Positions 3,325 to 13,653 of a DNA stretch of 13,653 bases are shown here, in pieces. The DNA lies in assembly GCA_021812735.1 (NCBI GenBank), contig JAKAMV010000167.1, positions 1 through 13,653 on the forward strand, written 5' to 3'. The notes under the pieces are model-generated. The model did no database searches. It was not told the origin of the DNA and saw only the letters and a list, made by a program, of their open reading frames with translations. The translations under genes and the position numbers were made by a program. Position 1 is the first letter of the stretch, and every line of letters starts with the position of its first letter. Source of the DNA: Chloroflexota bacterium. GTDB lineage: Bacteria; Chloroflexota; Limnocylindria; Limnocylindrales; CSP1-4.

Positions 3325-4341
3325 ATGAGCACCTCCTCACGGCTCCTCCGGCTGCTCTCGCTGCTCCAGACGCCGCGCGACTGGACGGGCGCCGAGCTCG
3401 CCGACCGGCTGGAGGTCAGCGCGCGCACCATCCGCAGCGACATTGAGCGGCTGCGCGCGCTGGGCTACCCGGTGCACGCGACCCGTGGCGCGATCGGCGG
3501 CTATCGGCTGGAGGCCGGCACGTCGATGCCGCCCCTGCTGCTCGAGGATGATGAGGCGGTCGCCGTGGCCCTCGGCCTGCGGACGGCGACGGCGGGAGCC
3601 GGGGCCGGGATCGGCGAGAGCTCCCTGCGCGCGCTTGCCAAGCTCGAGCAGGTCCTGCCGCCGCGCCTGCGCCGCCAGGTCGCGACGCTCCAGGACGTCA
3701 CGGTGCTCGCGCACCGGCGCACGGCGGCCACGGCCGCTGACCCGGCGGTCCTCACCGAGCTGGCGCGCCTCGCCCGCGAGCGGTTCAGCGTCCGGTTCGA
3801 CTACTCGGACCGGCGGGCGACTGCGTCACGGCGGCGCGTGGAGCCCTACCGCGTCGTCCACGCCGGCGCCCGCTGGTATCTGGTGGCCTGGGACCTCGAC
3901 CGCAGCGACTGGCGGACCTTCCGCGTCGACCGTGTCGCGTCAACCCTCTCAGCCGCCGCCCGGTTCCCGCCGCGACCGCTCACCGATGCCGACGTGGAGG
4001 CGCTGGTCACGCGCGGGATCCCGCCCGAAGCGCGCGCACACCAGGCGCGGGTGATCGTGGCCGCTCCGGCCCAGGAGCTCGCCGACCGCTTCGGGCCGTG
4101 GCTCGGGCCGGTCACGGAGCTCAATCCCGGGAGCTGCGCGGTGACGATCGGCGCCGATCGCGTCGAGGACCTCGCGCTGTGGCTCGGCCGCCTCGGCGCC
4201 GACTTCACCGTGGACGGTCCCCCGGAGCTGCTCGCGATCCTGGGCGTGCTCGCCGACCGGTACGCAGCCGCCGTCGCGCGCTCCGCTGCACCACGCGTGA
4301 CGCTTACCCCCGCGCCTGGAGCTTCGCCCAGGTGTCCTTGA
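3325..4341 (+). CDS. HTH-WYL domain transcriptional regulator (YafY/PafC-like)
   Basis: The 338-residue protein has an N-terminal winged helix-turn-helix of the HTH_11/DeoR type (about residues 6-62, recognition helix [17 protein letters not shown], wing GGYRL). A linker helix region follows, then a WYL domain at about 145-215 with RFDYSD, VEPYRVV and the diagnostic W-Y-L at 184-186 ([10 protein letters not shown]). A WCX-type C-terminal extension ends in the [16 protein letters not shown] helix. WYL domains are thought to bind ligands, often nucleotides or nucleic acids, and control the attached HTH. It is divergent from the MFS exporter across an 89-bp region with palindromes and probably represses that gene and itself. 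Its 3' end overlaps the 3' end of glnS by 38 bp on the opposite strand. The ATG start is set by the upstream -35/-10. Confidence 0.92.
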
Positions 4342-5998
4342 GGGTCAGCGTCCGATTGAACACGAGCGCCCCGGGCCGGGAGTCGGTGTCCGCGCAGAAG
4401 TAGCCGAGCCGCTCGAACTGGACCGTCTCGCCCGGCTTGGCGGCCGCCAGCGCCGGCTCGACGAATCCGTGGACGACCGTCTCGGACGCGGGGTTGAGGT
4501 CGTCGAGCAGGTCGCGGCCGTCGGCGCCCGGGTCGGGGCGGGTGAACAGGTAGTCGTAGAGCCGGATCTCGGCTGGCACCGCGTGCGCCACGGACACCCA
4601 GTGGAGCGTCGCCTTCGGACGCCGGCCGTCGGGCGAGTCGCCGCCCCGCGTCGCCGGGTCGTAGGAGCAGCGGAGCTCCACGACCCTGCCGCCGGCGTCC
4701 TTGACCACCTCGTCGCACGTGACGAAGTACGCGTTCCGCAGCCGCACCTCGCGCCCCGGCGCCAGGCGGAAGAACTTGGGCGCCGGCTCCTCCATGAAGT
4801 CGTCCCGCTCGATCCACAGCTCGCGCGAGAACGCGACCGGTCGCTCCCCGGCCGACGGGTCCTCGGGGTTGTTGACCACCTCCATGGTCTCGACCTGGCT
4901 GGCGGGGAAGTTCGTGATCACGACCTTGAGCGGGTCGAGTACGCCGAACCGCCGCGGCGCCGTGCGGTTGAGGACGTCGCGCACGCAGTGCTCGAGCAGT
5001 GCCATCTCGTGGGTGGAGTCGGCTCTGGCCACGCCGACCTCGGTCGCGAAGTCGCGGATGCCCTCGGCGGGGAAGCCGCGCCGGCGCAGGCCCGAGATCG
5101 TGGGCATGCGCGGGTCGTCCCAGCCCCGGACGCGGCCCTCGTTCACGAGCCGCAGCAGGAACCGCTTCGAGAGCACCGTGTAGGTGAGCGAGAGCCGCGC
5201 GAACTCGTACTGGTGCGGCACATGCGGGACGGGCAGGTGCTCGATCAGCCAGTCGTACAGCGGCCGGTGGACGTCGAACTCGAGCGTGCAGATCGAGTGC
5301 GTCACGCCCTCGATCGCGTCGCTCTGACCGTGCGCGTAGTCGTAGGTGGGGTAGATGCACCACGCGTCACCCGTCCGCGGGTGGCTGGCGTGGACGATGC
5401 GGTAGAGGACGGGGTCGCGCAGGTTGATGTTGGGCGAGGCCATGTCGATTTTGGCCCGCAGGACCCGGGCCCCGTTGGGGAACTCGCCGGCGCGCATCCG
5501 CGCGAACAGGTCGAGGTTCTCCTCGACGCTTCGGTCGCGGTGCGGCGAGTTGACGCCCGGCTCCGTGAGCGTGCCGCGCGTCTCCCGGATCTCGTCGGCC
5601 GACAGGTCGTCGACGAAGGCGTCGCCGTTCCGGATGAGGTGCAGCGCCCACTCGTAGAGCGTCTCGAAGTAGTCCGAGGCGTGGAACAGGTTGTCCCCCC
5701 AGTCGAACCCGAGCCAGCGGACGTCTGCCTGGATCGCGTCGAGGTACTCCTGCTCTTCCTTGACCGGGTTGGTGTCGTCGAAGCGCAGGTTGCAGTGCCC
5801 GCCGAACTCGGCCGCGACGCCGAAGTTGAGGCAGATCGACTTGGCGTGGCCGATGTGGAGGTAGCCGTTGGGCTCGGGCGGGAACCGGGTCACCGGCACC
5901 CTGATCCGGCCGGCGGCGATGTCGGCGGCCACGATGTCGCGGATGAAGTCGCGGCGGTCGGGGGCGGCGGGGGCGGGCTCGGTGTCTGGTTCGCTCAT
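4304..5998 (-). CDS. glnS: Glutaminyl-tRNA synthetase (GlnRS)
   Basis: A class I aminoacyl-tRNA synthetase of 564 residues, full length for bacterial GlnRS, which attaches glutamine to tRNA-Gln in the cytoplasm. Visible landmarks are [18 protein letters not shown] (HIGH at 48-51), FDDTNP at 73-78, [14 protein letters not shown] at 211-224 (amino-acid pocket; the Cys and Tyr pattern separates GlnRS from GluRS), and VLSKR at 275-279 (KMSKS equivalent). The C-terminal anticodon-binding beta-barrels carry NFPAS.VE and DTW. The ATG follows AGGAG with a 7-nt spacer. A tRNA-Gln(CUG)-like gene sits 70 bp upstream on the same strand, so the two may be co-transcribed. GlnRS is sporadic in high-GC Gram-positives, many of which use Glu-tRNA-Gln amidotransferase instead; acquisition by transfer is a reasonable inference. 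Confidence 0.97.
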
Positions 5999-6068
5999 GC
6001 GGCGGCTCCTGCTACTGGTCGGGGAGGAGTCGCGTCACGCGCCGGGCGCACCACACTCCGACGGGAGT

Positions 6069-6142
6069 TGGCTGACGCGCCGGGATTCGAACCGCGGCCC
6101 TCCCGGCTCAGCACCGGGTGCTCGTCCATGAGCCACGCATCA
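6069..6142 (-). tRNA. tRNA-Gln (anticodon CUG), atypical, possibly degenerate
   Basis: The minus strand folds as a tRNA with encoded CCA. The acceptor TGATGCG pairs with CGCGTCA (one G-U), and the discriminator is G73. The D-arm is GCTC/GAGC, and the anticodon stem CCCGG/CCGGG encloses TGCTGAG, so the anticodon is CTG (6111-6109). The variable loop has 5 nt, and the T loop is TTCGAAT. The U1-A72 pair and G73 match known GlnRS identity elements. Odd features are G instead of the near-universal U at position 33, a short D loop, and two mismatches in the T stem (CGCGG against CCCGG). These cast doubt on function, so it may be a pseudo-tRNA. It lies just upstream of glnS on the same strand. Confidence 0.65.
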
Positions 6143-6211
6143 GCGACCTGGCCGCAAGTCTAGCGCAGCCGTGCGGGCGGCCTGTGCGCTCGGCGACGGT
6201 GCGCCACGTCC

Positions 6212-6258
6212 CTGACATATACGTATACTCATACTCATACCGCCCTGAACCAAGGAGG
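6212..6258 (+). promoter_or_regulatory. Promoter/operator with AT palindrome and ATACTC repeats, plus Shine-Dalgarno
   Basis: This is an AT-rich patch in GC-rich surroundings. It has the 10-bp palindrome TATACGTATA (6218-6227) running into tandem ATACTC (6225-6230, 6231-6236, partial ATAC 6237-6240). TATACT (6224-6229) is a good -10 hexamer, and AAGGAGG (6252-6258) is a strong Shine-Dalgarno 7 nt before GTG 6266. Short tandem repeats overlapping a promoter are typical operators of ribbon-helix-helix proteins, and the next gene begins with such a fold, so autoregulation is inferred. Confidence 0.5.
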
Positions 6259-6265
6259 CTAGGAT

Positions 6266-6799
6266 GTGCCCGTGCCGAACAAGACGATCTACGTGTCCGA
6301 CGGCGACCTGCCGCTCTTCGCTCGCGCGCAGGAGCTCGCCGGCGGCAACCTCTCGTCCGCGATCTCGAGGGCGCTGCGCCGCTGGGTCGACACCGCAGAG
6401 GGCCTGGGGGGCGGGTTCGAGGAGATCACCGTCAGGGTGGGTCTCGGGGCCGGTCGAAAGGTCCGCTTCGTCGGCGTGCTCGTGGGCGAGTGGATGGACA
6501 CTCGAGCCGGCCGGGGCGGCATGGCTGACGCCTACCACGTCTATCGCGGCCGGACCGGCAAGTTCGTGGTCCACGTCGAGCGGAGCCCCGAGTGGTGGGC
6601 AGTCGACGCCGAGGGCAAGCCAGCCGGCTGGCGAGCATGGGTCGGCGTGGGCGACATCCGGTACGGCTCGGGGCCCAAGGAGTCAACGCTCGAGGTGGTG
6701 GACGTGCTCGAGCAGCTGCGCGACAAGATCCCCCCGGAGCTCTTCGACATGGTCGAGCGGACGACCCGCCAGCCGACCGTGGAGGAGCTCGACATCTAG
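6266..6799 (+). CDS. EXLDI family protein, ribbon-helix-helix-like N-terminus
   Basis: A 177-residue protein beginning (MP)VPNKTIYVSDGDLPLFARA and ending in VEELDI. The C-terminal E-x-L-D-I signature and the NKTIYV start match the uncharacterised EXLDI family. The first 45 residues (strand KTIYV, then two helices ending AISRALRRWVD) look like an Arc/MetJ-type ribbon-helix-helix DNA-binding domain. The middle part (EITVRVG, KVRFVGVLVGEW, YHVYRGRTGKFVVHVER) looks beta-rich and could sense a ligand. The start at GTG 6266 is best for the Shine-Dalgarno; GTG 6272 gives the family-typical MPNKTIYV and has TAGGAT at -12 to -7. It precedes a DrrAB-type exporter by 51 bp and probably regulates it. Function in the family is not established. 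Confidence 0.85.
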   Translation: MPVPNKTIYVSDGDLPLFARAQELAGGNLSSAISRALRRWVDTAEGLGGGFEEITVRVGLGAGRKVRFVGVLVGEWMDTRAGRGGMADAYHVYRGRTGKFVVHVERSPEWWAVDAEGKPAGWRAWVGVGDIRYGSGPKESTLEVVDVLEQLRDKIPPELFDMVERTTRQPTVEELDI

Positions 6800-6850
6800 C
6801 CGGTCCGGCGCCGTACACGGCACCACGTCCGCAGCGCCGGGAGCCGTCCG

Positions 6851-7810
6851 ATGACCGCGCCGTCAGCCGACCCCGCCATCTCTGTGCGCGGTCTTCGCAA
6901 GGCCTACGGCTCACATACCGTGCTCGACGGCATCAGCCTCGACGTGCCCGCGGGCTCGGTCTTCGCACTCCTGGGCCCCAACGGGGCGGGCAAGACGACG
7001 GCGGTCCACATCCTCACCACGCTGCTCCATCCCGACGCCGGGGAGGTGCTCGTGGGCGGCGTGGACATCGCGCGGCGGCCAGACGACGCGCGCCGGCTGA
7101 TCGGGCTGACCGGCCAGGTGTCCGCCGTCGACCCGCAGTTCACCGGCGCCGAGAACCTGCTGCTGATGGCCGATCTGCACCACCTCCCGCGCGATCGGAG
7201 CCGGCGGCGCGTCCGCGAGCTGCTCGACCGCTTCGACCTCGAGGACGCCGCGGCCAAGCCGGTCCAGACCTGGTCGGGCGGGATGCGCCGTCGCCTGGAC
7301 CTCGCGATGACGCTCGTGGTCGAGCCGCGGATCATCTTCCTGGACGAGCCCACGACGGGTCTCGACCCGCGCAGCCGCCGGGTCATGTGGGACATCGTGC
7401 GCGAGCTCGTCGGCGGCGGCGCCACCGTGTTCCTCACCACGCAGTACCTTGAGGAGGCCGACCGCCTCGCGAGCCGGATCGCGCTGCTCGACGACGGCCG
7501 CATCGTGGCCCAGGGGACCCCGGTCGAGCTCAAGCGGCTCGTCCCCGGCGGCAGTGTGCGGCTGGAGTTCGGATCGCCCGGGGAGCTGGAGCGCGCGTCG
7601 AGCGTGCTCGACGGCGCCGCCCGCGACGAGCAGGGCCTCGCCCTCGAGGTCGCCAGCGACGGCGGCATGCACTCGCTCCGGGCGCTGCTCGACCGCCTCG
7701 ACGCGTCGTCGGTCGAGGTGGACGCCCTCTCGGTCCGTCCGGCCGACCTCGACGACGTGTTCCTCCACCTGACGGGCCGCCGGGACGGCGGCGAGGAGAT
7801 CAGCCGATGA
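6851..7810 (+). CDS. ABC transporter ATP-binding protein, DrrA (daunorubicin resistance) type
   Basis: A 319-residue cytoplasmic ATPase subunit of an exporter. It has Walker A GPNGAGKTT at 42-50, Q-loop Gln89 (GLTGQVSAVD), the ABC signature WSGGMRRRLD at 141-150, Walker B IIFLDEP at 161-167, D-loop TGLD at 169-172, and TTQYLEEAD, where Gln replaces the usual switch histidine as is common in DrrA-type proteins. The C-terminal 80 residues form the DrrA-type extension ending in DDVFLHLTGR, which in this family helps bind the permease. The ATG has a modest GGGAG site. Its stop overlaps the permease start by ATGA, implying translational coupling. Likely cargo is a hydrophobic drug-like compound; specificity is unknown. 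Confidence 0.95.
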   Translation: MTAPSADPAISVRGLRKAYGSHTVLDGISLDVPAGSVFALLGPNGAGKTTAVHILTTLLHPDAGEVLVGGVDIARRPDDARRLIGLTGQVSAVDPQFTGAENLLLMADLHHLPRDRSRRRVRELLDRFDLEDAAAKPVQTWSGGMRRRLDLAMTLVVEPRIIFLDEPTTGLDPRSRRVMWDIVRELVGGGATVFLTTQYLEEADRLASRIALLDDGRIVAQGTPVELKRLVPGGSVRLEFGSPGELERASSVLDGAARDEQGLALEVASDGGMHSLRALLDRLDASSVEVDALSVRPADLDDVFLHLTGRRDGGEEISR

Positions 7811-8613
7811 ACGCCCATGCCCTCGCCGACTCGGCGACGATGCTCCGCCGCAGTCTGCGCCGGATGCGCCGCTACCCGTCGCTCACCCTGTTCGTGGCCG
7901 GCATCCCGGTGGCCCTGATGCTCCTGTTCGTGTACGTGTTCGGCGGCACGCTGGGCGCGGGCATCGGCGGGGCGGCGGCCGATGCCACGCTCGACCGCGC
8001 GGCCTACACCGCGTACGTCGTGCCGGCGATCCTGCTCATCGCCGTTGCCGGGGCGGGGCAGGGGACGGCCATCTCGGTGGCCATGGACATGACCCAGGGG
8101 ATCATCGCCCGGTTCCGCACGATGGCCATCGCCCGGTCGTCAGTGCTCGCGGGCCATGTGCTCGGGGCCGTCCTGCAGTCGATGATGGCCATCGCGATCG
8201 TGGTGGGGGTGGCGCTCGTGATCGGCTTCCGCCCGACCGCCGGACCCGTCGCCTGGCTGGCGGCACTGGGCCTGCTCGCCCTCGCCGCGACCGCGGTCAG
8301 CTGCCTCTCGGTGGCGCTGGGGCTGGCTGCCAACAGCGTCGAGACGGCCAGCAACTCGCCGATGTTCCTCACCCTGCTGCCCTTCCTGAGCTCGGGCTTC
8401 GTGCCCGCGGCGTCGATGCCGGGGCCGCTGGGCTGGTTCGCCGGGGTCCAGCCGTTCACGCCGGTCATCGAGACGCTCCGCGGGCTCCTGCTCGGGACCG
8501 CGGTCGGCGACAGCGGGATCGAGGCCGTGGCGTGGTGCTTGGTGGTGGCCGTGGCGGGGTTCCTGTGGGCGATGCGCCTCTACGAGCGGCTGCCGGAGAG
8601 GCCGGGCGCGTGA
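7807..8613 (+). CDS. ABC-2 type transporter permease (DrrB-like)
   Basis: A 268-residue inner-membrane protein with about six hydrophobic helices. The first follows a basic N-terminus (RRSLRRMRRYP, then LTLFVAGIPVALMLLFVYVFGG). Typical ABC-2/DrrB segments are seen: YVVPAILL, a MTQGIIARFRTMAIARSSVLAGH stretch in two parts on the cytoplasmic side, PMFLTLLPFLSSGFVP, and VQPFTPVIETLRGLLLG near the C-terminus. This last pair of motifs is shared by DrrB permeases. It starts inside the ATPase stop codon and so should form the transporter with it, probably as a 2+2 complex. A GC hairpin follows 49 bp after the stop. Confidence 0.95.
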   Translation: MNAHALADSATMLRRSLRRMRRYPSLTLFVAGIPVALMLLFVYVFGGTLGAGIGGAAADATLDRAAYTAYVVPAILLIAVAGAGQGTAISVAMDMTQGIIARFRTMAIARSSVLAGHVLGAVLQSMMAIAIVVGVALVIGFRPTAGPVAWLAALGLLALAATAVSCLSVALGLAANSVETASNSPMFLTLLPFLSSGFVPAASMPGPLGWFAGVQPFTPVIETLRGLLLGTAVGDSGIEAVAWCLVVAVAGFLWAMRLYERLPERPGA

Positions 8614-8690: not shown

Positions 8691-8727
8691 AGCACGTGGC
8701 CGCACCGGCTGCACCAGGAGTTGGGAA

Positions 8728-8772
8728 TGGCTGGCGCGCCAGGATTCGAACCTGGAACCCCCTGATCCAGAG
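8728..8772 (-). repeat. Left att repeat: 3' half of tRNA-Gln(CUG)
   Basis: On the minus strand this reads anticodon loop CTCTGGA (anticodon CTG), a 3' stem TCAGG, T-arm CCAGG/TTCGAAT/CCTGG, acceptor strand CGCGCCA and GCCA. It is identical to 11844-11888 over all 45 bp, and identity stops at both ends. No tRNA 5' half adjoins it (the following bases are unrelated), so this is a duplicated att fragment and not a gene. Confidence 0.78.
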
Positions 8773-8845
8773 GTCGGCCGGACCGTGAACGGCCGTTCTG
8801 TTCGTGCGTGCGATGCGTCCCGATCCGTTCCGTCCGTCCGGCAGT

Positions 8846-8878
8846 GTACCCCCGCCAAGGGGTACGGTTGCGGGGTAC
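8846..8878. promoter_or_regulatory. Three-half-site operator upstream of the DUF6941-like gene
   Basis: GTACCCC (8846-8852), GGGGTAC (8859-8865) and GGGGTAC (8872-8878) are three perfect 7-bp half-sites with exactly 6 bp between neighbours (13-bp period). The first pair is an inverted repeat and the second pair is direct. It lies 26 bp before ATG 8905. The arrangement looks like a protein-binding site controlling the first cargo gene; no regulator is recognised inside the element. Confidence 0.45.
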
Positions 8879-8904
8879 AGGTGTCGGCCAACGGGAGGGC
8901 TTGG

Positions 8905-9387
8905 ATGGACTCAGGCGGCCCCTACATCAACGCTGCGTTCTTCTGTGAGCGCGTGATCGAGGAGCGGGACGGCACGCTCTCCGCGATCCGGATCGTGGAC
9001 CGCGTCACGAATATGGCGGTCGGGACGGGCACCCCGGCGGCGATGCCCGCGATGCCCGTCAACCTCGCGCTGCTGATCGCCCTGAAGCCGGGGCGAGCCC
9101 TGGGACGGCACGACGTCCAGATCACCGCGGAGCGGCCTTCGGGGATCCGGACCGACATGGCCAGCGCCCTGTCCGTCAACCTCGAGGGCGGGGATCGCGG
9201 TGCCAACCTGGTGATGAACCTATCGCTCGTCGTGACCGAGGTGGGCCTCTACTGGTTCGACGTGGTCGTCGACGAGACGGTGCTCACACGAGTGCCGCTA
9301 CGTGTGCTCTACCAGCGACAGGAGGCGGGACCTCCTCCCGGAGAGTCAGGTTCACCTGGTCCGTCCGGTAACCGGCCCCAGTTGTGA
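8905..9387 (+). CDS. DUF6941-like protein, unknown function
   Basis: A 160-residue protein. The N-terminal pattern PYINAAFFCERVIEERDGTLSAIRIVDR is like the opening of DUF6941 proteins (a strand, CE.v.e..g..s.i.i.d). The remainder alternates hydrophobic strands (MPVNLALLIAL, LVMNLSLVVTEVGLYWFDVVVDE, RVPLRVLYQ), consistent with a small beta-sandwich. The last 25 residues are a Gly/Pro/Ser tail that overlaps the antisense gene at 9284-9664. The ATG is chosen because GGGAGG lies 6 nt upstream (8893-8898), although the frame is open further left through the repeat. It is the first gene inside the left att repeat. Function is unknown, no catalytic motif is visible, and the family assignment is from memory of the pattern. 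Confidence 0.75.
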   Translation: MDSGGPYINAAFFCERVIEERDGTLSAIRIVDRVTNMAVGTGTPAAMPAMPVNLALLIALKPGRALGRHDVQITAERPSGIRTDMASALSVNLEGGDRGANLVMNLSLVVTEVGLYWFDVVVDETVLTRVPLRVLYQRQEAGPPPGESGSPGPSGNRPQL

Positions 9388-9664
9388 CGCGCCACTCGGG
9401 GGCCGGCCCGATCCTCACGGGGATCGGGGCGAGGACCGCCAGCTCGGCGCGCAGCTCCTCATCATCGAGGACGCCGCTTCCGTGCTCCGCCAGGAGCAGC
9501 TCGACGCGACCCCACAACCGGTCCAGGGCATCGTCGCCGGCGGGGAGGGCCTCGCCCATCGTCGCGACCATCTCGTCGAGCTCGCGCAGCTGCCGCTCGC
9601 CGGCCACGACGGCGCCGATGGCGTCGCGGAGCTCGGAGAGCTGACCGGTGGTGGCGAAGCCCAT
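9284..9664 (-). CDS. Hypothetical helical protein (126 aa)
   Basis: The frame has strongly G/C-ending codons along most of its length, as expected for a coding strand here. GGGAG lies upstream of the ATG at 9664-9662. The N-terminal 75 residues are predicted to be largely helical with heptad-like spacing (QLSELRDAIGAVVAGERQLRELDEMVATM in pieces, then DALDRLWGRVELLLAEHG), suggesting a short coiled coil. The C-terminal part is mixed. It overlaps the tail of the DUF6941-like gene by 104 bp on the opposite strand, and its start overlaps the start of the divergent gene at 9648 by 17 bp. I do not recognise the family. Confidence 0.6.
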   Translation of the reverse strand: MGFATTGQLSELRDAIGAVVAGERQLRELDEMVATMGEALPAGDDALDRLWGRVELLLAEHGSGVLDDEELRAELAVLAPIPVRIGPAPEWRVTTGAGYRTDQVNLTLREEVPPPVAGRAHVAALV

Positions 9665-9977
9665 TGTCTATGTCTCCCAGAGCGAGCTGTGGCGCGTCTA
9701 CGCGGATGGCGATTATGACGGGCGACTGCAGCGCGGCGAACTCCTGTCTCGCGTGGTCGATGATAACCATCCCTCGCGACCAAAGGCGCGCGAGCCGTTC
9801 TGCACCCGCAGCCAGATGATCCAGCTCGTGCGTGCCCGCGACCACGCCGTGTTGGTTCTGGCGCACCGGTACCTCCGGCGCGACGGCACGATCGGGGCGT
9901 CCGGCAAGCCCGACCCAAAGCGGATCTACCTCGCCGACAAGATCCTGACCCTCGATCGGTCGGCGGCAGGATCGTGA
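9648..9977 (+). CDS. Small conserved-looking hypothetical protein (109 aa)
   Basis: Starts GTG 9648 or GTG 9651 (MAKPIVYVSQSELWRVYADG..). The protein has an N-terminal strand, a central basic stretch with CTRSQMIQLVRARDHAVLVLAHRYLR, and a C-terminal GTIGASGKPDPKRIY segment. The alternation of strands and short helices looks like a compact folded domain, not a shadow frame. There is no signal peptide or membrane segment. Its stop overlaps the next start as GTGA, so the two are translationally coupled. Function is not recognised; it may act with the downstream 97-residue protein as a two-part cargo module. Confidence 0.72.
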   Translation: MVAKPIVYVSQSELWRVYADGDYDGRLQRGELLSRVVDDNHPSRPKAREPFCTRSQMIQLVRARDHAVLVLAHRYLRRDGTIGASGKPDPKRIYLADKILTLDRSAAGS

Positions 9978-10267
9978 CCGAGCGCGCCGACGTCGAGCTC
10001 TGGCCGGTCCTGCCCGAGCGGCCGGCCGGCCTCGAGTGCGCGCCGCGGCCCGGCCAGTGGGTCTGGTACGTGCCGGAGAAGATCCGCCACAGCTCGTTCC
10101 ACGAGGTGCTGTCCGTCGAGTCGCTGACCGAGGACGGCGAGCCGCCGCTCGAGCTCGTGGTGGTCACGTGCGGGCGCGCCTGGCCGCTCGACGAGCTCGC
10201 GGCGGCCGTCGAGTGGTCGGTCCGGTGCTGCGACGGTCTCAGGACCGGGTCAGCGCCCAATGCCTGA
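9974..10267 (+). CDS. Small hypothetical protein (97 aa), coupled to the upstream gene
   Basis: GTG 9974 overlaps the preceding stop. The protein (MTERADVELWPVLPERPAG..) contains a WVWYVPEKIRHSSFHEVLSVESL core, then a strand PLELVVVTCGRAWPLDELAAAVEWSV, and a C-terminal pair of cysteines (RCC). The aromatic W-x-W-Y and the strand pattern suggest a small beta-rich domain. I do not recognise a family. It lies in a three-gene run of small frames that converges on the DUF5677-like gene. Confidence 0.68.
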   Translation: MTERADVELWPVLPERPAGLECAPRPGQWVWYVPEKIRHSSFHEVLSVESLTEDGEPPLELVVVTCGRAWPLDELAAAVEWSVRCCDGLRTGSAPNA

Positions 10268-10341
10268 ACTGCGCCCGGGAGGGGTCGGGCAAGCCGAACC
10301 ACTGGATGCGGCGGCTGCGGGAGACGGGCGTCCTGGGCTGA
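10225..10341 (+). CDS. Possible micro-ORF with CxxC (38 aa)
   Basis: GTG 10225 opens a short frame encoding MLRRSQDRVSAQ, CLNCAREG, then SGKPNHWMRRLRETGVLG, ending TGA 10339-10341. Codons mostly end in G/C, and the CxxC followed by a basic helix looks like a half zinc site or a DNA/RNA-contacting peptide. It overlaps the preceding gene by 43 bp and has no strong ribosome site. It could equally be a frameshifted C-terminus of that gene or chance. Confidence 0.3.
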   Translation: MLRRSQDRVSAQCLNCAREGSGKPNHWMRRLRETGVLG

Positions 10342-10359
10342 ACGAGCCCCGGGCGGCGC

Positions 10360-11121
10360 TTACGGACGCGGCTCCCACGCGGCGAGCGCCAAGCGCAGAG
10401 CGTCCAGGTCCGCCTCGAGGCCGAGGCCGAGCTGGCGGCTGGTAGACGCGAGCAGCATGCACAGGGCCGGCACGGCCAGCCCGCGCACCATCTCGCCGGG
10501 CACGGCTGGCCTCAGGCGCAGGTGCGTGCCGTCCGGACGCCGCGTGAGGCGGTCCCCGACGAAGGCGCGGCCGTTGGCGTGGACCATCTGGCTCAGCAGC
10601 TGGAACGTCCAGTAGAGCTCGACGGCGTCGCCGCCGAGCTCCGCGCGGTCCGAGATCGAGGGGAGCAGCGGGTCCGAGGCCTTGGCGCTGATCCGCTCGC
10701 CGACGCGGGCGACCGCGACCCGGCGCAGCAGGCGCGCCCGCTGCTCGCGCCGGCGGATCTCCTCGGGCGCGAACGCGGCCAGCTGGGCCAGGCCTCGGCC
10801 CTTCCGGACCCTGTTGAAGCCGATGCCGACCCGGATCGCGTCGCGGGCGTCGCTCGCGGTGTAGAGCGCGAGCCGCAGGCGCGGGGCGCCCTCGATCCAC
10901 TTGGCGAGGATCACCAGGTCGATCAGCGAGCGGAGGATGCCGACGCCGGCCTCGGGCCACCTGGCGGCGACGTCCCACGCCTGGCCGTAGTAGCGGACGC
11001 CCCGGAGGGCGAAGGCGATGGCGAACCGCTGCCCGTCCGTCCGGCCCTCGAGCGGCAGGTCGAAGGCGCCGAAGAACGCCCGGACCCGGACGTTGCCCTG
11101 CGAGGTGCTCATCGCGGCCAT
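10360..11121 (-). CDS. DUF5677-like helical protein, unknown function
   Basis: The start is placed at ATG 11121-11119 (GGGGGA just upstream; a second ATG lies 3 codons later). The frame stays open further but becomes an antisense Ser/Arg-rich shadow of the recombinase. The 253-residue protein is mostly helical: FAIAFALRGVRYYGQAWDVAARW, a RSLIDLVILAKWIEG helix, YTASDARDAIRVG, a YWTFQLLSQMVHANG helix, and a C-terminal VPALCMLLASTSRQLGLGLEADLDALRLAL region. The R-S-L-x-D/E-L..W helix followed by an H-containing helix (MVHANGRAF) resembles DUF5677-type proteins, which are uncharacterised and found mainly in variable genome regions. It is the only minus-strand cargo gene of medium size and is convergent with the small-gene run. 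The assignment is tentative; a long helical, possibly abortive-infection-like role is speculation. Confidence 0.7.
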   Translation of the reverse strand: MAAMSTSQGNVRVRAFFGAFDLPLEGRTDGQRFAIAFALRGVRYYGQAWDVAARWPEAGVGILRSLIDLVILAKWIEGAPRLRLALYTASDARDAIRVGIGFNRVRKGRGLAQLAAFAPEEIRRREQRARLLRRVAVARVGERISAKASDPLLPSISDRAELGGDAVELYWTFQLLSQMVHANGRAFVGDRLTRRPDGTHLRLRPAVPGEMVRGLAVPALCMLLASTSRQLGLGLEADLDALRLALAAWEPRP

Positions 11122-11155
11122 CGGGTCCCCCACGCGTCCCCCATTGGCGGCGAGG

Positions 11156-11188
11156 GGCCCCGGCCGAGGGGGGGATCCGGCCGGGGCC
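11156..11188. terminator. Strong GC hairpin between recombinase remnant and DUF5677-like gene
   Basis: A perfect 11-bp stem, GGCCCCGGCCG (11156-11166) with CGGCCGGGGCC (11178-11188), has an 11-nt loop. It lies 35 bp upstream of the minus-strand gene start, so it is not a normal 3' terminator for either flanking gene. It may insulate the two or act as a leader attenuator. Direction cannot be assigned. Confidence 0.4.
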
Positions 11189-11329
11189 GCCAGCGGCAAT
11201 TCTAGGACGGGCAGATCACCCCGGAGCGCGCTTCGCAAGCGCATCGCCGAGCGCTTCGCCGACGACCCACCTGAGCGCCCCCAGCCAGCCCAGGACGCCC
11301 CGCGGCGGCCCGAGAGCCCGGCGGACACG

Positions 11330-11764
11330 CTCGAGCGGGGGACGAACCGCCTGGCCGAGCCGAAGACCGACCGCAGCCGGCGGACGCTGCACCTGCCGCT
11401 CCCCGTCACGGCCGCTCTGCGGCGCCACAGGACCGCCCAGGAGCTCGAGAGGGCGTCGAGGAAGGTCTGGGACGTGCGCGGCCTCGTGTTCGCCAACAGC
11501 GTCAACGGCGGGCCGCTGGACGGCCACAACGTGACGGGAGAGCTCCGCGACGTCCTCGCGGCAGCCGGCCTGCCCCGCCAGCGATTCCACGACCTCCGCC
11601 ACGCCTTCGCGACCCTCCAGCTCGAGGCCGGAGCCGAGCTTTTCGAGGTGAGCCGGGCCCTGGGCCACTCCAACATCAGCACGACGGCAGACGTCTACGG
11701 CGCGTTCACGAAGGCGATGGCGCGCAGGACGGCCGAGCGGATGGACGCCGTGCTCGGCGGCTGA
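11330..11764 (+). pseudogene. Tyrosine recombinase (phage-type integrase), 5'-truncated
   Basis: The catalytic C-terminal part is intact. It has the beta-hairpin lysine in LAEPKTDRSRRT (Lys at 11363-11365), a RGLVFANS..G.PLDG..V region, H-x-x-R in FHDLRHAFATL (11588-11602), LGHSNIST with the second His (11666-11668), and the nucleophile Tyr in ADVYGAF (11696-11698), ending at TGA 11762. The arm-binding domain, core-binding domain and the first catalytic Arg are absent. Upstream the frame is open but shows only Pro/Arg-rich sequence antisense to other features, with no credible start or ribosome site. It cannot be catalytically complete. It sits 80 bp from the right att repeat, as integrase genes of tRNA-targeting elements usually do, and an intrinsic terminator follows. 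Confidence 0.8.
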
Positions 11765-11785
11765 AGTCGGTATGCCAAGTCGGTA
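11764..11785. repeat. Tandem AAGTCGGTA pair after the recombinase stop
   Basis: AAGTCGGTA occurs at 11764-11772 and 11777-11785, one 13-bp period apart, between the recombinase stop and the att repeat. Position and spacing suit an integrase arm-type or excisionase binding site, which is an inference from placement. Confidence 0.4.
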
Positions 11786-11800
11786 CGGCCCGGAATCGAG

Positions 11801-11829
11801 AGGCCCCCGGATCGCTCCGGGGGCCTTTT
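11801..11829 (+). terminator. Intrinsic (Rho-independent) terminator
   Basis: AGGCCCCCGGA (11801-11811), tetraloop TCGC, TCCGGGGGCCT (11816-11826), then a run of T to 11829. The perfect 11-bp stem with U-tract lies 36 bp after the recombinase stop. On the other strand it would also fold downstream of the tRNA-like sequence, but without a U-tract. Confidence 0.9.
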
Positions 11830-11843
11830 CACGTTCGGGGGAG

Positions 11844-11918
11844 TGGCTGGCGCGCCAGGATTCGAACCTGGAACCCCCTGATCCAGAGTCAACTGACCGA
11901 TAGTCAGGCGGTTCGCCA
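11844..11918 (-). tRNA. tRNA-Gln(CUG)-like gene at the right att site, probably degenerate
   Basis: The 3' half (11844-11888) is textbook: loop CTCTGGA with U33 and anticodon CTG, T-arm CCAGG/CCTGG around TTCGAAT, discriminator G73, encoded CCA. The 5' half (11889-11918) fits poorly. TGGCGAA matches the CGCGCCA acceptor in only five of seven pairs, the anticodon stem GTTGA/TCAGG has a G-G end pair and a wobble, and the D-arm does not form the usual four-pair stem. CCTGA, which would pair perfectly with TCAGG, is found instead inside the D-arm region. It is either a damaged tRNA gene or an att site with a chance upstream half. The anticodon still indicates Gln. Confidence 0.5.
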
Positions 11919-11929
11919 GCGCTGGCCCC

Positions 11930-12452
11930 GAACCCACGTTCAGGAGCCCTGTTTCGATCGCTCCTCGGGCGCTAAGCGCCGTCAGATTCCGGGGGTGTCA
12001 GGCGAACATCCCCGCGAGAGTCAGGCGCACCAGCCGGATCGCCTGAGCGTCAAGCGAACTTCGGGTGCGTCTCTTGATGGTACGCCTGGGGTGCGAGCGC
12101 GACCCCGCCCATGGAGGCGCGGGCGGCCCTGACCGTTGCGCCGGGGCCGCCGCCTTGTCGTTACGTGCGAAGGCCCAGGCCCACACGACCCAGAGGGCGA
12201 TCAGCGCCTCCTGGCGTCAGCGAGAACGCGCCTCCCGAGCACGCGACAGGAGTTGAGTGCGCGGACGTCACGGCTATTCGGATGGCATCGGGATCGGGAT
12301 CGGGATCGACGGAAGGGTGACCGAACCGCCCACCCGTCACGAACCATCAAGCGAATGCGCGACCGCCTGGGTCGGTCGTTCCGGGAGCAGCAAGTCGAAG
12401 CGTGCGTCGCGGGGTGGCACAGCCGAGGAACCTAGCGGGCCCCGAGACGCCT
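11930..12452. other. Intergenic stretch without a convincing gene
   Basis: About 520 bp between the right tRNA-like site and the AlbA_2 gene. Short frames here on either strand are rich in Arg/Ala/Pro and lack ribosome sites or recognisable folds. Visible items are a short tandem repeat, ATCGGG x 3.7 at 12287-12308, and scattered GTCAGGCG/GTCAAGCG words around 11997-12056. It may hold degraded sequence from earlier insertions at the tRNA site. Confidence 0.5.
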
Positions 12453-13653
12453 ATGCTGCTGTTCGTGGACATCGGGCAGATGCAACTTGGCGATCTCGCG
12501 GCGCTTCTCGGCGAGCAGCAAGCGTTCGTTCGCGCGGCGCTGCAGCGCGATGGTGACCGCTGGGCGCTGCGGACGTGCGAGGCGGTAGTGGGCGCCGAGC
12601 CTCCCGACTGGCATGCTGAATGCTGGGAGTACCCCTCGCATGCATTCGTCGCGGACATCGCGCCTGCGAGCTCCCTCCTCGGAGCCTTCCGGGTGGATCC
12701 GGGCGGCGAGATGACCATCGGGTCGGTTGCCGCGACGGTCGCAGCCACCTACGACACAGTGCAGTGGCGCCACCTCCCGAGCCGTTCCGCCTACGATCCC
12801 GGCCCGCTGCCATGGCCGACGGTCGACTACGAGATCAGCGGCCCGCAGGCTCAGGCGACCGGTGGCCCGTCCGGCTTCCTGATCGGCGACAGCTGTCCCT
12901 CGTTCACCGACGCCGACACCGCGCTGCGGGCGTTCTTCTACGGTGACTACACGACCATCGGCGCGGGGCGGACGACGAGTCGAATCGCCCTCATCCGGCA
13001 CGTCGACCAAGGGGCGTGGATCGGACGCATCGCAATCGGTCCGACGCACATCGACGTGGTGATCCGCGGCAATTCGGTCTCAGGGGTCACGGTTGAGCTC
13101 AACAGCGGGACGATCAGGACGAGGAGGACGACCGGTCCTGGCGGCCGCGTCCGGCTCAGTCTCCCGGACGGTCTTCCCGATGATGCGTGGCTATTCGTGA
13201 CCCGTTGCAGCCGCTGGCTCGACTATCGGCCGCTAGGCCAGCAGCTCCCCGGGACGAAGGCGCTCGCGGAGCGCGGGGTCGAGTTTGCGATCCCCGACGA
13301 CCCCGACAGTAGAGTGGCTGCCCTCATCGCCCAAGGCGAGGGGCCGCACGTCGAGTTCAAACGCGAACTGCCCGGCGCAGGCGACGAGTCTCGGCGCAAG
13401 GTCCTCAAGACCGTCGCAGCGTTCGCCAACGGTGCTGGCGGAGTGATTGTCTTCGGCATCGACCCCGACGAGGTCACAAGGGTCGGCGTGGCTGCGGACG
13501 ACGAGCAGGTCGTGCGTGACCGGCTCGGGGGGATTATCCACCGAGTCCTTCGACCCACCCCGGACTTCGAGGTCCGCTGGGCGAACGCCTTCGGCGTCCG
13601 CCTCGGGTTGCCGGAGGTGACGCCCGGCCTGGTGCAGCCGTACGGGATCCAGC
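12453..13653 (+). CDS. Schlafen/AlbA_2-domain protein with a novel N-terminal region (partial, runs off the end)
   Basis: Four hundred codons are open from ATG 12453 to the window edge. Residues about 1-290 (MLLFVDIGQMQLGDLAALLG..) match nothing I recognise. They look like a globular mixed alpha/beta region with several Trp and a beta-rich second half (ALIRHVDQGAWIGRIAIG, HIDVVIRGNSVSGVTVEL). From about 295 an AlbA_2 (Schlafen-type) domain begins: EGPHVEFKREL (Glu301, Lys303), KVLKTVAAFANGAGGVIVFG (319-335; FANG.GG is the family hallmark), GID at 335-337, then RDRLGGIIHRVLRPTP. AlbA_2 proteins include putative nucleic-acid-binding regulators and defence proteins. ATG 12453 has a weak ribosome site; in-frame GTG starts a few codons upstream or ATG 12480 are possible. 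Codons ending in A/T are more common than in neighbouring genes, suggesting later acquisition. Confidence 0.82.
   Translation, partial: MLLFVDIGQMQLGDLAALLGEQQAFVRAALQRDGDRWALRTCEAVVGAEPPDWHAECWEYPSHAFVADIAPASSLLGAFRVDPGGEMTIGSVAATVAATYDTVQWRHLPSRSAYDPGPLPWPTVDYEISGPQAQATGGPSGFLIGDSCPSFTDADTALRAFFYGDYTTIGAGRTTSRIALIRHVDQGAWIGRIAIGPTHIDVVIRGNSVSGVTVELNSGTIRTRRTTGPGGRVRLSLPDGLPDDAWLFVTRCSRWLDYRPLGQQLPGTKALAERGVEFAIPDDPDSRVAALIAQGEGPHVEFKRELPGAGDESRRKVLKTVAAFANGAGGVIVFGIDPDEVTRVGVAADDEQVVRDRLGGIIHRVLRPTPDFEVRWANAFGVRLGLPEVTPGLVQPYGIQ

Follow-up and report, generated by a model that had tools for sequence, protein, structure and literature searches.

A probable prophage remnant between tRNA-Gln(CTG) 3' halves in a Chloroflexota genome, with a putative second element at its attachment site

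A 13,653-nt stretch of a Chloroflexota genome (contig JAKAMV010000167.1 of assembly GCA_021812735.1; the whole stretch analysed is hereafter called the window) contains a segment of 3.1 kb bounded by two identical fragments of a tRNA-Gln gene. This raises the question of what kind of element was integrated there, and what became of it. A previous sequence-only reading had described the segment as a compact integrated element resembling a satellite or mini-island, and had pointed to phage defence as a frequent function of such elements. We consider it reasonably probable that the segment, here called element 1, is the integrase-proximal remnant of a prophage at tRNA-Gln(CTG), and that a second element, element 2, was accreted at its attachment (att) site. 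The features discussed are collected in Table 1. Counts given for the order refer to a sample of 126 genomes of the order containing genome G036, and those for the class to a set of 177 genomes.

Direct repeats and integrase remnant at tRNA-Gln(CTG)

The direct repeats at 8728–8772 and 11844–11888 are identical over all 45 nt, with a spacing of 3116 nt. When the flank is included (8723–8772 against 11839–11888), 49 of 50 positions are equal, 45 of them consecutive. An exact match of 45 nt within 13.6 kb is not a matter of chance. The tRNA-Gln(CTG) genes that ARAGORN predicts as complete in related Chloroflexota end in exactly the same 45 nt (45/45 in L163, L165, L168–L170 and L172–L177), and the repeats are therefore 3' halves of tRNA-Gln(CTG). 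Neither copy is a complete tRNA, the sole tRNA called by ARAGORN in the window being an unusual one at 6069–6142, and 11855–11905 scored 17 bits against the Rfam tRNA model, under its gathering score of 29. A 101-nt query spanning the right copy gave matches in 104 of the 126 genomes of the order.

Relatives of the window were found by means of its glutaminyl-tRNA synthetase (GlnRS), which has matches of 77–81% in four genomes of a Chloroflexota-wide sample (n=151). The nearest relatives found are G162 and G165, with a GlnRS identity of 88–89%. The use of glnS as an anchor among the genome contigs was abandoned in favour of this phylum search, the identity being at most 72% among the matches listed.

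A truncated tyrosine integrase gene lies 80 nt from the right repeat. The encoded protein is 81% identical over 144 aa to a full-length homologue of 392 aa (P0007), and the homology, which starts at about 11327 in the window, is restricted to P0007 residues 244–387. The protein has thus lost its N-terminal domains and the beginning of its catalytic domain, presumably together with the first catalytic arginine. Members of this integrase family target tRNA genes: among 30 loci examined, eight have the 3' end of the integrase gene facing the 3' end of a tRNA gene within 180 nt (five tRNA-Pro, one tRNA-Lys and two tRNA-Arg). With tRNA-3'-end repeats at both ends and a C-terminal integrase remnant beside one of them, element 1 has the make-up of a tRNA-integrated island or prophage remnant, and on these points the sequence-only reading is confirmed: its perfect 45-bp repeats, its integration at a tRNA-Gln and its recombinase remnant at one end all stand.

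The same integrase remnant, more decayed and spread over several frames, adjoins an intact tRNA-Gln in G162. The alignment between the two genomes (76% at the DNA level over 458 nt) takes in the remnant, the 3' half and the intergenic DNA between them, and breaks off at window position 11891, past which G162 proceeds into a tRNA 5' half. The site in G162 thus lacks element 2 yet keeps the integrase remnant. In G213, a 77-aa remnant of the same integrase family also adjoins tRNA-Gln. On contig C22 of G165 there is an intact tRNA-Gln, 3' of which no recombinase was found; the flank there is not that of the window. Overall, a recombinase gene starts within 1.5 kb 3' of tRNA-Gln(CTG) in at least 10 of 63 predictions (64 loci, two predictions being of the unusual glnS-linked type). 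This is a lower bound, since the recombinase models were limited to one serine type and two tyrosine groups, and the sequence of many loci stops shortly past the tRNA.

Cargo of element 1 and its counterparts in phage contigs

Between the repeats (8773–11843), searches against Pfam, PHROGs, NCBIfam and PADLOC recognised no replication, transfer, structural or defence gene, in line with the previous statement that replication, transfer and phage structural genes are absent. The cargo genes were also rightly described as uncharacterised. The DUF6941 gene is the sole cargo open reading frame (ORF) with a Pfam match above the cut-off, the DUF5677-like gene falls below it, two small ORFs have counterparts in phage contigs (one of them weak), and for the 97-aa ORF no match above chance was found in the four databases. 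The codon bias of the three small ORFs is of the coding type, the GC content by codon position of the 126-aa ORF being 0.82/0.48/0.86. The cargo does not belong to the core genome, since matches to the DUF5677-like protein, all of them weak, were found in only 3 of the 126 genomes of the order (28–30% identity) and to DUF6941 in only one (30% identity).

The AlphaFold2 model of the DUF6941 protein is all-beta, with a mean confidence (pLDDT) of 93, and the top 50 Foldseek rows contain immunoglobulin-like and other beta-sandwich matches with TM scores of at most 0.54. The DUF5677-like protein has five homologues among 7998 scored candidates, including one of 76% identity over its length and one fragment of 100% identity over 65%. 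Its structure model is poor (pLDDT 46), comparison with solved structures gave one chance-level row (E 0.4), and it has no match in IMG/VR or in plasmid records, the phage records of INPHARED being searched with DUF6941 alone. A literature search returned nothing on DUF6941, only off-topic material on DUF5677, and nothing on integrases in Limnocylindrales; other papers listed likewise had nothing on this taxon, and no search was aimed at the block described below. Our guess is that both genes are accessory prophage genes.

Relatives of the DUF6941 protein were found on five IMG/VR contigs (L337–L341). Three of these (L337, L338 and L340) keep the order and strands of the window, i.e. DUF6941 on the plus strand, a small ORF on the minus strand and an ORF of about 105 aa on the plus strand. 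The third gene of this triplet is well supported, with tblastn E values of 3e-20 (L337), 8e-15 (L340) and 6e-11 (L338). The minus-strand middle gene is recognised only by its position and by an alignment at 26–32% identity that used hand-picked stretches, single tblastn matches being weak (E 0.02–0.8). L341 has a weaker version of the triplet (third gene E 0.012), and L339 has DUF6941 without it. Phage genes occur beside them: a terminase, portal and maturation protease beside the triplet in L337, a tape measure beside DUF6941 in L339, a weak match to a major head protein in L340 (E 2e-5) and a weak endolysin match in L341 (E 8e-5). Furthermore, an integrase follows the triplet in L338 and L341.

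The 45-nt repeat itself is also found in a phage contig. One exact copy is located about 400 nt from the integrase gene of G321 (L342, IMGVR_UViG_3300032954_000044), a 39.8-kb contig encoding a terminase, a portal, a tape measure (weaker, E 3e-7) and an integrase, and this phage evidently uses the tRNA-Gln site. G321 is an environmental phage contig, by inference from a phage of this Chloroflexota order. It shares with the window the exact attachment sequence and the possession of an integrase; the two integrases are only 34% identical, and at the DNA level only the tRNA-like repeats match, the whole of G321 not having been searched for the DUF6941 protein.

The occurrence of the DUF6941 triplet in phage contigs makes a decayed prophage a better reading than a satellite. 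Phage satellites such as phage-inducible chromosomal islands (PICI), P4-like elements and PICMI are characterised by a replication or primase module, genes that hijack the helper phage and a working integrase. Element 1 gave no such match among Pfam, PHROGs or NCBIfam families, and the likeness to a satellite is therefore not supported. Nor is the suggested phage defence within the 3.1 kb: the single PADLOC match in element 1 was at chance level (PDC-S05, E 0.033, on the integrase remnant). Defence genes are present beyond the block described below in G162 and G165. Because no structural, packaging or lysis gene was found in 8773–11843, we use the term remnant, solely by virtue of the triplet's association with phage contigs.

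Element 1 could instead, with a clearly smaller likelihood, be what remains of an integrative and mobilizable element (IME), an integrative and conjugative element (ICE) or a small genomic island, formed by the same integration and decay but with the triplet as accessory baggage common to phages and islands. This is supported by L338, which encodes ParB, a helix-turn-helix regulator, the triplet and an integrase, with no structural gene among its ORFs scanned, and by the presence of DUF6941 on long contigs. Units in which no recombinase was found also lie between tRNA-Gln 3' halves in relatives (G231:C159, with metabolic genes, and G241:C5). However, terminase, portal, protease and tape measure genes are found beside DUF6941 in L337 and L339, a phage contig bears the same 45-nt site, and the family matches of element 1 include no transfer gene. 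A prophage origin is the reading that we prefer.

The right junction and a putative second element

The sequence-only reading missed that the right repeat also borders on a further feature to its right. Where a normal tRNA 5' half would be expected, past position 11888, the window instead has a block of about 240 nt, and 11888 is thus a junction shared by element 1 and the block. Relatives of the block were found in both nearest genomes, with 91% identity over 248 nt in G162:C73 and 82% over 249 nt in G165:C61. These two contigs, compared over 50 and 36 kb, align with each other in the block only.

The window, together with ten sequences drawn from nine genomes, served to build a model of the block. 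This model matched in 20 of the 177 genomes of the class, the nine training genomes included, with up to 12 matches per genome; the block is multicopy in G231 (12), G180 (8) and G307 (7). Within the order there are 39 matches. For 22 of them, not counting G162, which matched the block itself, a tRNA-Gln 3' half lies no more than 250 nt away, and the relative orientation is the same throughout. Fifteen of these blocks are on the 5' side of the 3' half, at 49–65 nt in 13 cases and at 5 and 88 nt in the other two, and seven are on its 3' side (91–183 nt). Only two of the 22 are training sequences (G160:C4 and G245). The association extends beyond the order, where four of six block loci examined also have a 3' half, and was noted individually in L160, L161, L166, L167, L282 and L298. 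A strict motif pair was present in 3 of the 126 genomes, each time beside a tRNA-Gln or half, and had no match in IMG/VR.

In seven other copies of the block the core is preceded by CGCC in place of the 3' half, G165 having a variant thereof, as would be expected of an unsplit attachment site. In the remaining matches without a 3' half the core is absent or the locus was not examined. Two contigs of G160 (C1 and C16) share ends consisting of host 5' flank and a complete tRNA followed by a tyrosine recombinase gene with repeats, and in a third (C4) the block comes after a 3' half. The two arrangements are consistent with attL and attR of a single integrated element, albeit on different contigs. 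Judged by these comparisons, 11889–12125 looks like the end of a second element integrated at the attachment site of element 1. Contig C71 of G219 has the core, a real tRNA 5' half and the block without a 3' half, and some element ends perhaps carry a tRNA 5' half.

The block was also considered as a structured RNA; this idea was set aside, only one of 12 predicted pairs being changed on both sides. The Rfam matches in 11700–12050 (SrbA and other weak ones) were all under their gathering scores.

Our initial reading of the right copy was a decayed native tRNA-Gln with a 'type B' 5' half and its own 5' flank, in which case 11889–12125 would be host DNA and only element 1 mobile. It was dropped because the block proved mobile, and is retained as an improbable alternative. 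Two observations speak for host DNA: the block is located upstream of a complete tRNA-Gln in G245 and G120, and in the window, as in G162 and G165, its first part is similar to a worn tRNA 5' half. The presence of the block in only 20 of 177 genomes, its several copies in G231, G180 and G307, and the alignment of G162 and G165 in the block alone across 36–50 kb speak against it. Furthermore, the integrase remnant of G162 adjoins an intact tRNA-Gln, and the one block that this genome was found to contain lies at another place.

Table 1. Positions of the features of the window, with the basis of each assignment
Feature	Position	Strand	Basis
Left flank taken as host: glnS, unusual tRNA-Gln, EXLDI regulator, ABC ATPase and permease	4304..8613	.	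Colinearity with relatives
Left direct repeat; displaced tRNA-Gln(CTG) 3' half, attR-like end of element 1	8728..8772	-	45/45 to 11844–11888 and to the 3' half of relatives' complete tRNA-Gln genes
DUF6941 protein, 160 aa	8905..9387	+	Pfam PF22091, E 7e-10
126-aa ORF; weak counterpart in three phage contigs at same place and strand	9284..9664	-	Alignment at 26–32% identity
ORF of about 105 aa; third gene of triplet, conserved C-terminal DGTIGASGKPDPK-type motif	9648..9977	+	tblastn and alignment
97-aa ORF; coding-like codon bias	9974..10267	+	GC by codon position 0.74/0.53/0.97
DUF5677-like protein, 250 aa	10360..11112	-	Pfam PF18928, E 6e-4, below cut-off
Tyrosine integrase, C-terminal catalytic part, 145 residues and stop; N-terminal and central part lost	11327..11764	+	PF00589 positions 52–167 of 172; P0007 homology
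Right direct repeat; tRNA-Gln 3' half, right end of element 1 and proposed left end of element 2	11844..11888	-	Repeat match, relatives' tRNA genes, G162 alignment to 11891
Arm-like block and proposed end of element 2; TCAGGCGAAC-type direct repeats at 11998, 12021 and 12050, with a looser copy near 11904	11889..12125	+	Relatives, motif and model searches
ORF with Schlafen AlbA_2 domain; first large ORF past the block, open at window end	12402..13653	+	PF04326, E 1.2e-10

Proposed history of the locus

A number of observations weigh against a prophage remnant joined by a second element. The 3.1 kb retain no structural phage gene, and the remnant in the window shares only 31–34% identity with the integrases of L338, L341 and L342. 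DUF6941 is not proven to be phage-specific, some of its 106 homologues being located on contigs of 130–570 kb, and the triplet as a whole may not be phage-specific either. DUF6941 had no match in the phage records of INPHARED. Element 1 and the left part of the window have the same GC content (0.723). With regard to the block, 10 of the 22 cases beside 3' halves come from the single genome G231, 17 of the 39 matches have no 3' half within 250 nt, and a simple end-of-element model predicts otherwise than the complete tRNA-Gln genes downstream of the block in G245 and G120. Finally, the ABC permease gene is located 115 nt from the left repeat in the window and about 27.6 kb from tRNA-Gln in G162, so that the lineage of the window needs an extra deletion or rearrangement, or a chimera has to be allowed for. 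It is quite improbable that the 45-nt repeat joined unrelated contigs in the assembly and that the 3.1-kb unit is not real as drawn: in G162 and G165 the left flank and right part are indeed widely separated or located on other contigs, but the junction of integrase and repeat recurs in G162, the protein collection assigns the integrase remnant (P0006) to three contigs, the longest of which has the length of the window, and the right junction by our own reading shares only about 15 nt with the tRNA-Gln site.

From the features above we infer the following order of events. A temperate phage would have integrated by means of a tyrosine recombinase into the anticodon-loop/3'-half site of tRNA-Gln(CTG), so that the 3' half at 8728 would be the displaced one and that at 11844 the copy brought in by the phage. 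Deletion would then have removed most of the prophage, including the N-terminus of its integrase, and left the DUF6941 triplet, one orphan ORF, the DUF5677-like gene and the integrase tail between intact att cores. Later, an unrelated second integrative element may have recombined into the att site at 11844–11888, its arm-site block and Schlafen (SLFN) AlbA_2 cargo now replacing the tRNA 5' half. The remainder of element 2, and with it the tRNA 5' half, would lie past the end of the window. Element 1 is presumably not self-mobile; its two identical att copies might allow loss or carriage if a suitable integrase is supplied, in the manner of a cis-mobilizable element (CIME).

Cargo beyond the block and flanking genes

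The AlbA_2 domain of the large ORF past the block is C-terminal, with about 310 residues ahead of it that have no Pfam match, and the ORF has no PADLOC match. Defence genes follow the block in three of the ten contexts read, most of the others having been read by eye only: a ThsB-TIR, SLOG and TIR_2 in G165, a GajB-like helicase, a type IIG restriction-modification protein and a HerA-like protein in G162, and HsdM and HsdS in G160:C4. In G165:C61 (L161, 6830–11506) a ThsB-like TIR, a SLOG cluster-2 and a TIR_2 protein are encoded in a row near a 515-aa serine recombinase and a tRNA-Asn. Other contexts carry different genes. A unit of 10.3 kb in G231:C159, flanked on both sides by a 3' half and repeats and with no recombinase found, encodes LacI, an ABC permease, a beta-lactamase-family protein, GH32 and PfkB; G231:C21 carries LacI and GH127, an IS110 transposase is encoded in G180:C127, and a DDE_3 fragment in G239 scored below cut-off. 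The metabolic and transposase cargo of these four contigs rules out that all blocks carry defence genes, and with three of ten contexts defence is one kind of cargo and not the rule.

On the left side, the region from glnS to the ABC genes is colinear in G165:C93 (78–86% at the DNA level) and partly so in G162:C16, where the pieces are rearranged. The gene metH was tried as a marker of the other side of the locus and rejected, giving only domain-size matches in G162 and G165.

The tRNA-Gln beside glnS (6069–6142) is unusual in having, by our reading, a G at position 33, and a bulged T-stem base in the Rfam alignment. It scored 35 bits in an Rfam alignment, though the Rfam scan of the whole window listed no family. 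It is 95–96% conserved over 77 nt in G162 and G165, both of which also have a canonical tRNA-Gln elsewhere. In G246, G036 and G243 (L170, L171 and L172) glnS is located between two complete tRNA-Gln(CTG) genes, as if a tRNA-Gln–glnS unit had been inserted beside a resident tRNA-Gln. In G241:C5 (L257, 1560–6170) a complete tRNA-Gln is followed by two further 3' halves, identical over 44 nt, which delimit units of about 3.5 and 1.0 kb with no recombinase found in them.

Comparison with known systems

The proposed history resembles a scheme already described. A review of IMEs (PMC5704250) sets out three steps: integration, decay to a CIME, and integration of another element into the att site. Element 1 is like the CIMEs and tandem accretions described there in having two att sites, no functional integration or transfer genes and a neighbouring element at a shared att site, and differs in that the proposed parent is a prophage, any present mobility is hypothetical and the partner is only partly in view. 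Tandem islands bounded by repeats of an RNA-gene 3' end are also known from another member of the Chloroflexota, Dehalococcoides, where 15 of 31 reported ssrA-specific islands have no integration module (PMC3146451); those islands involve ssrA and a serine recombinase, whereas tRNA-Gln and tyrosine recombinases are involved here. Tycheposons and the additive tRNA-Lys island of Methylophilaceae (PMC10872708) likewise have tRNA-bounded cargo, tRNA 3'-end repeats and an XerD-type recombinase, whereas element 1 is a remnant without a working recombinase and is likened to tycheposons by the tRNA alone. In Islander-type tDNA islands (PMC4383910), a regenerated gene and a displaced fragment are reported to mark the ends, as in the window, where the regenerated gene differs in being itself interrupted by the second element. 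We regard the window as a fresh instance of a familiar genome scar and not as a new system.

Implications

A more far-reaching speculation, which we consider unlikely, is that tRNA-Gln(CTG) anchors an attachment-site stacking system in this order. Units, some with an integrase of their own and some without, would each end in a 3' half and TCAGGCGAAC arm repeats that copy the core half-site, and an Xer-like integrase would capture and stack them in trans, thereby pooling phage remnants, defence genes and sugar-use cargo. Some ends would also supply the tRNA 5' half and rebuild the gene from the side opposite to the usual one. The TCAGGCGAAC repeats may be likened to the attI site of integrons, in which arm repeats also copy the core half-site.

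The window is mainly a clear example of decay followed by accretion. Furthermore, it points to tRNA-Gln(CTG) as an integration site for a phage, for more than one recombinase family and for units in which no recombinase was found, in a little-studied order of the Chloroflexota. The signature of a 3' half, the core and TCAGGCGAAC arms finds element ends in fragmentary genomes, and the phage-associated DUF6941 triplet provides a lead for families of unknown function.

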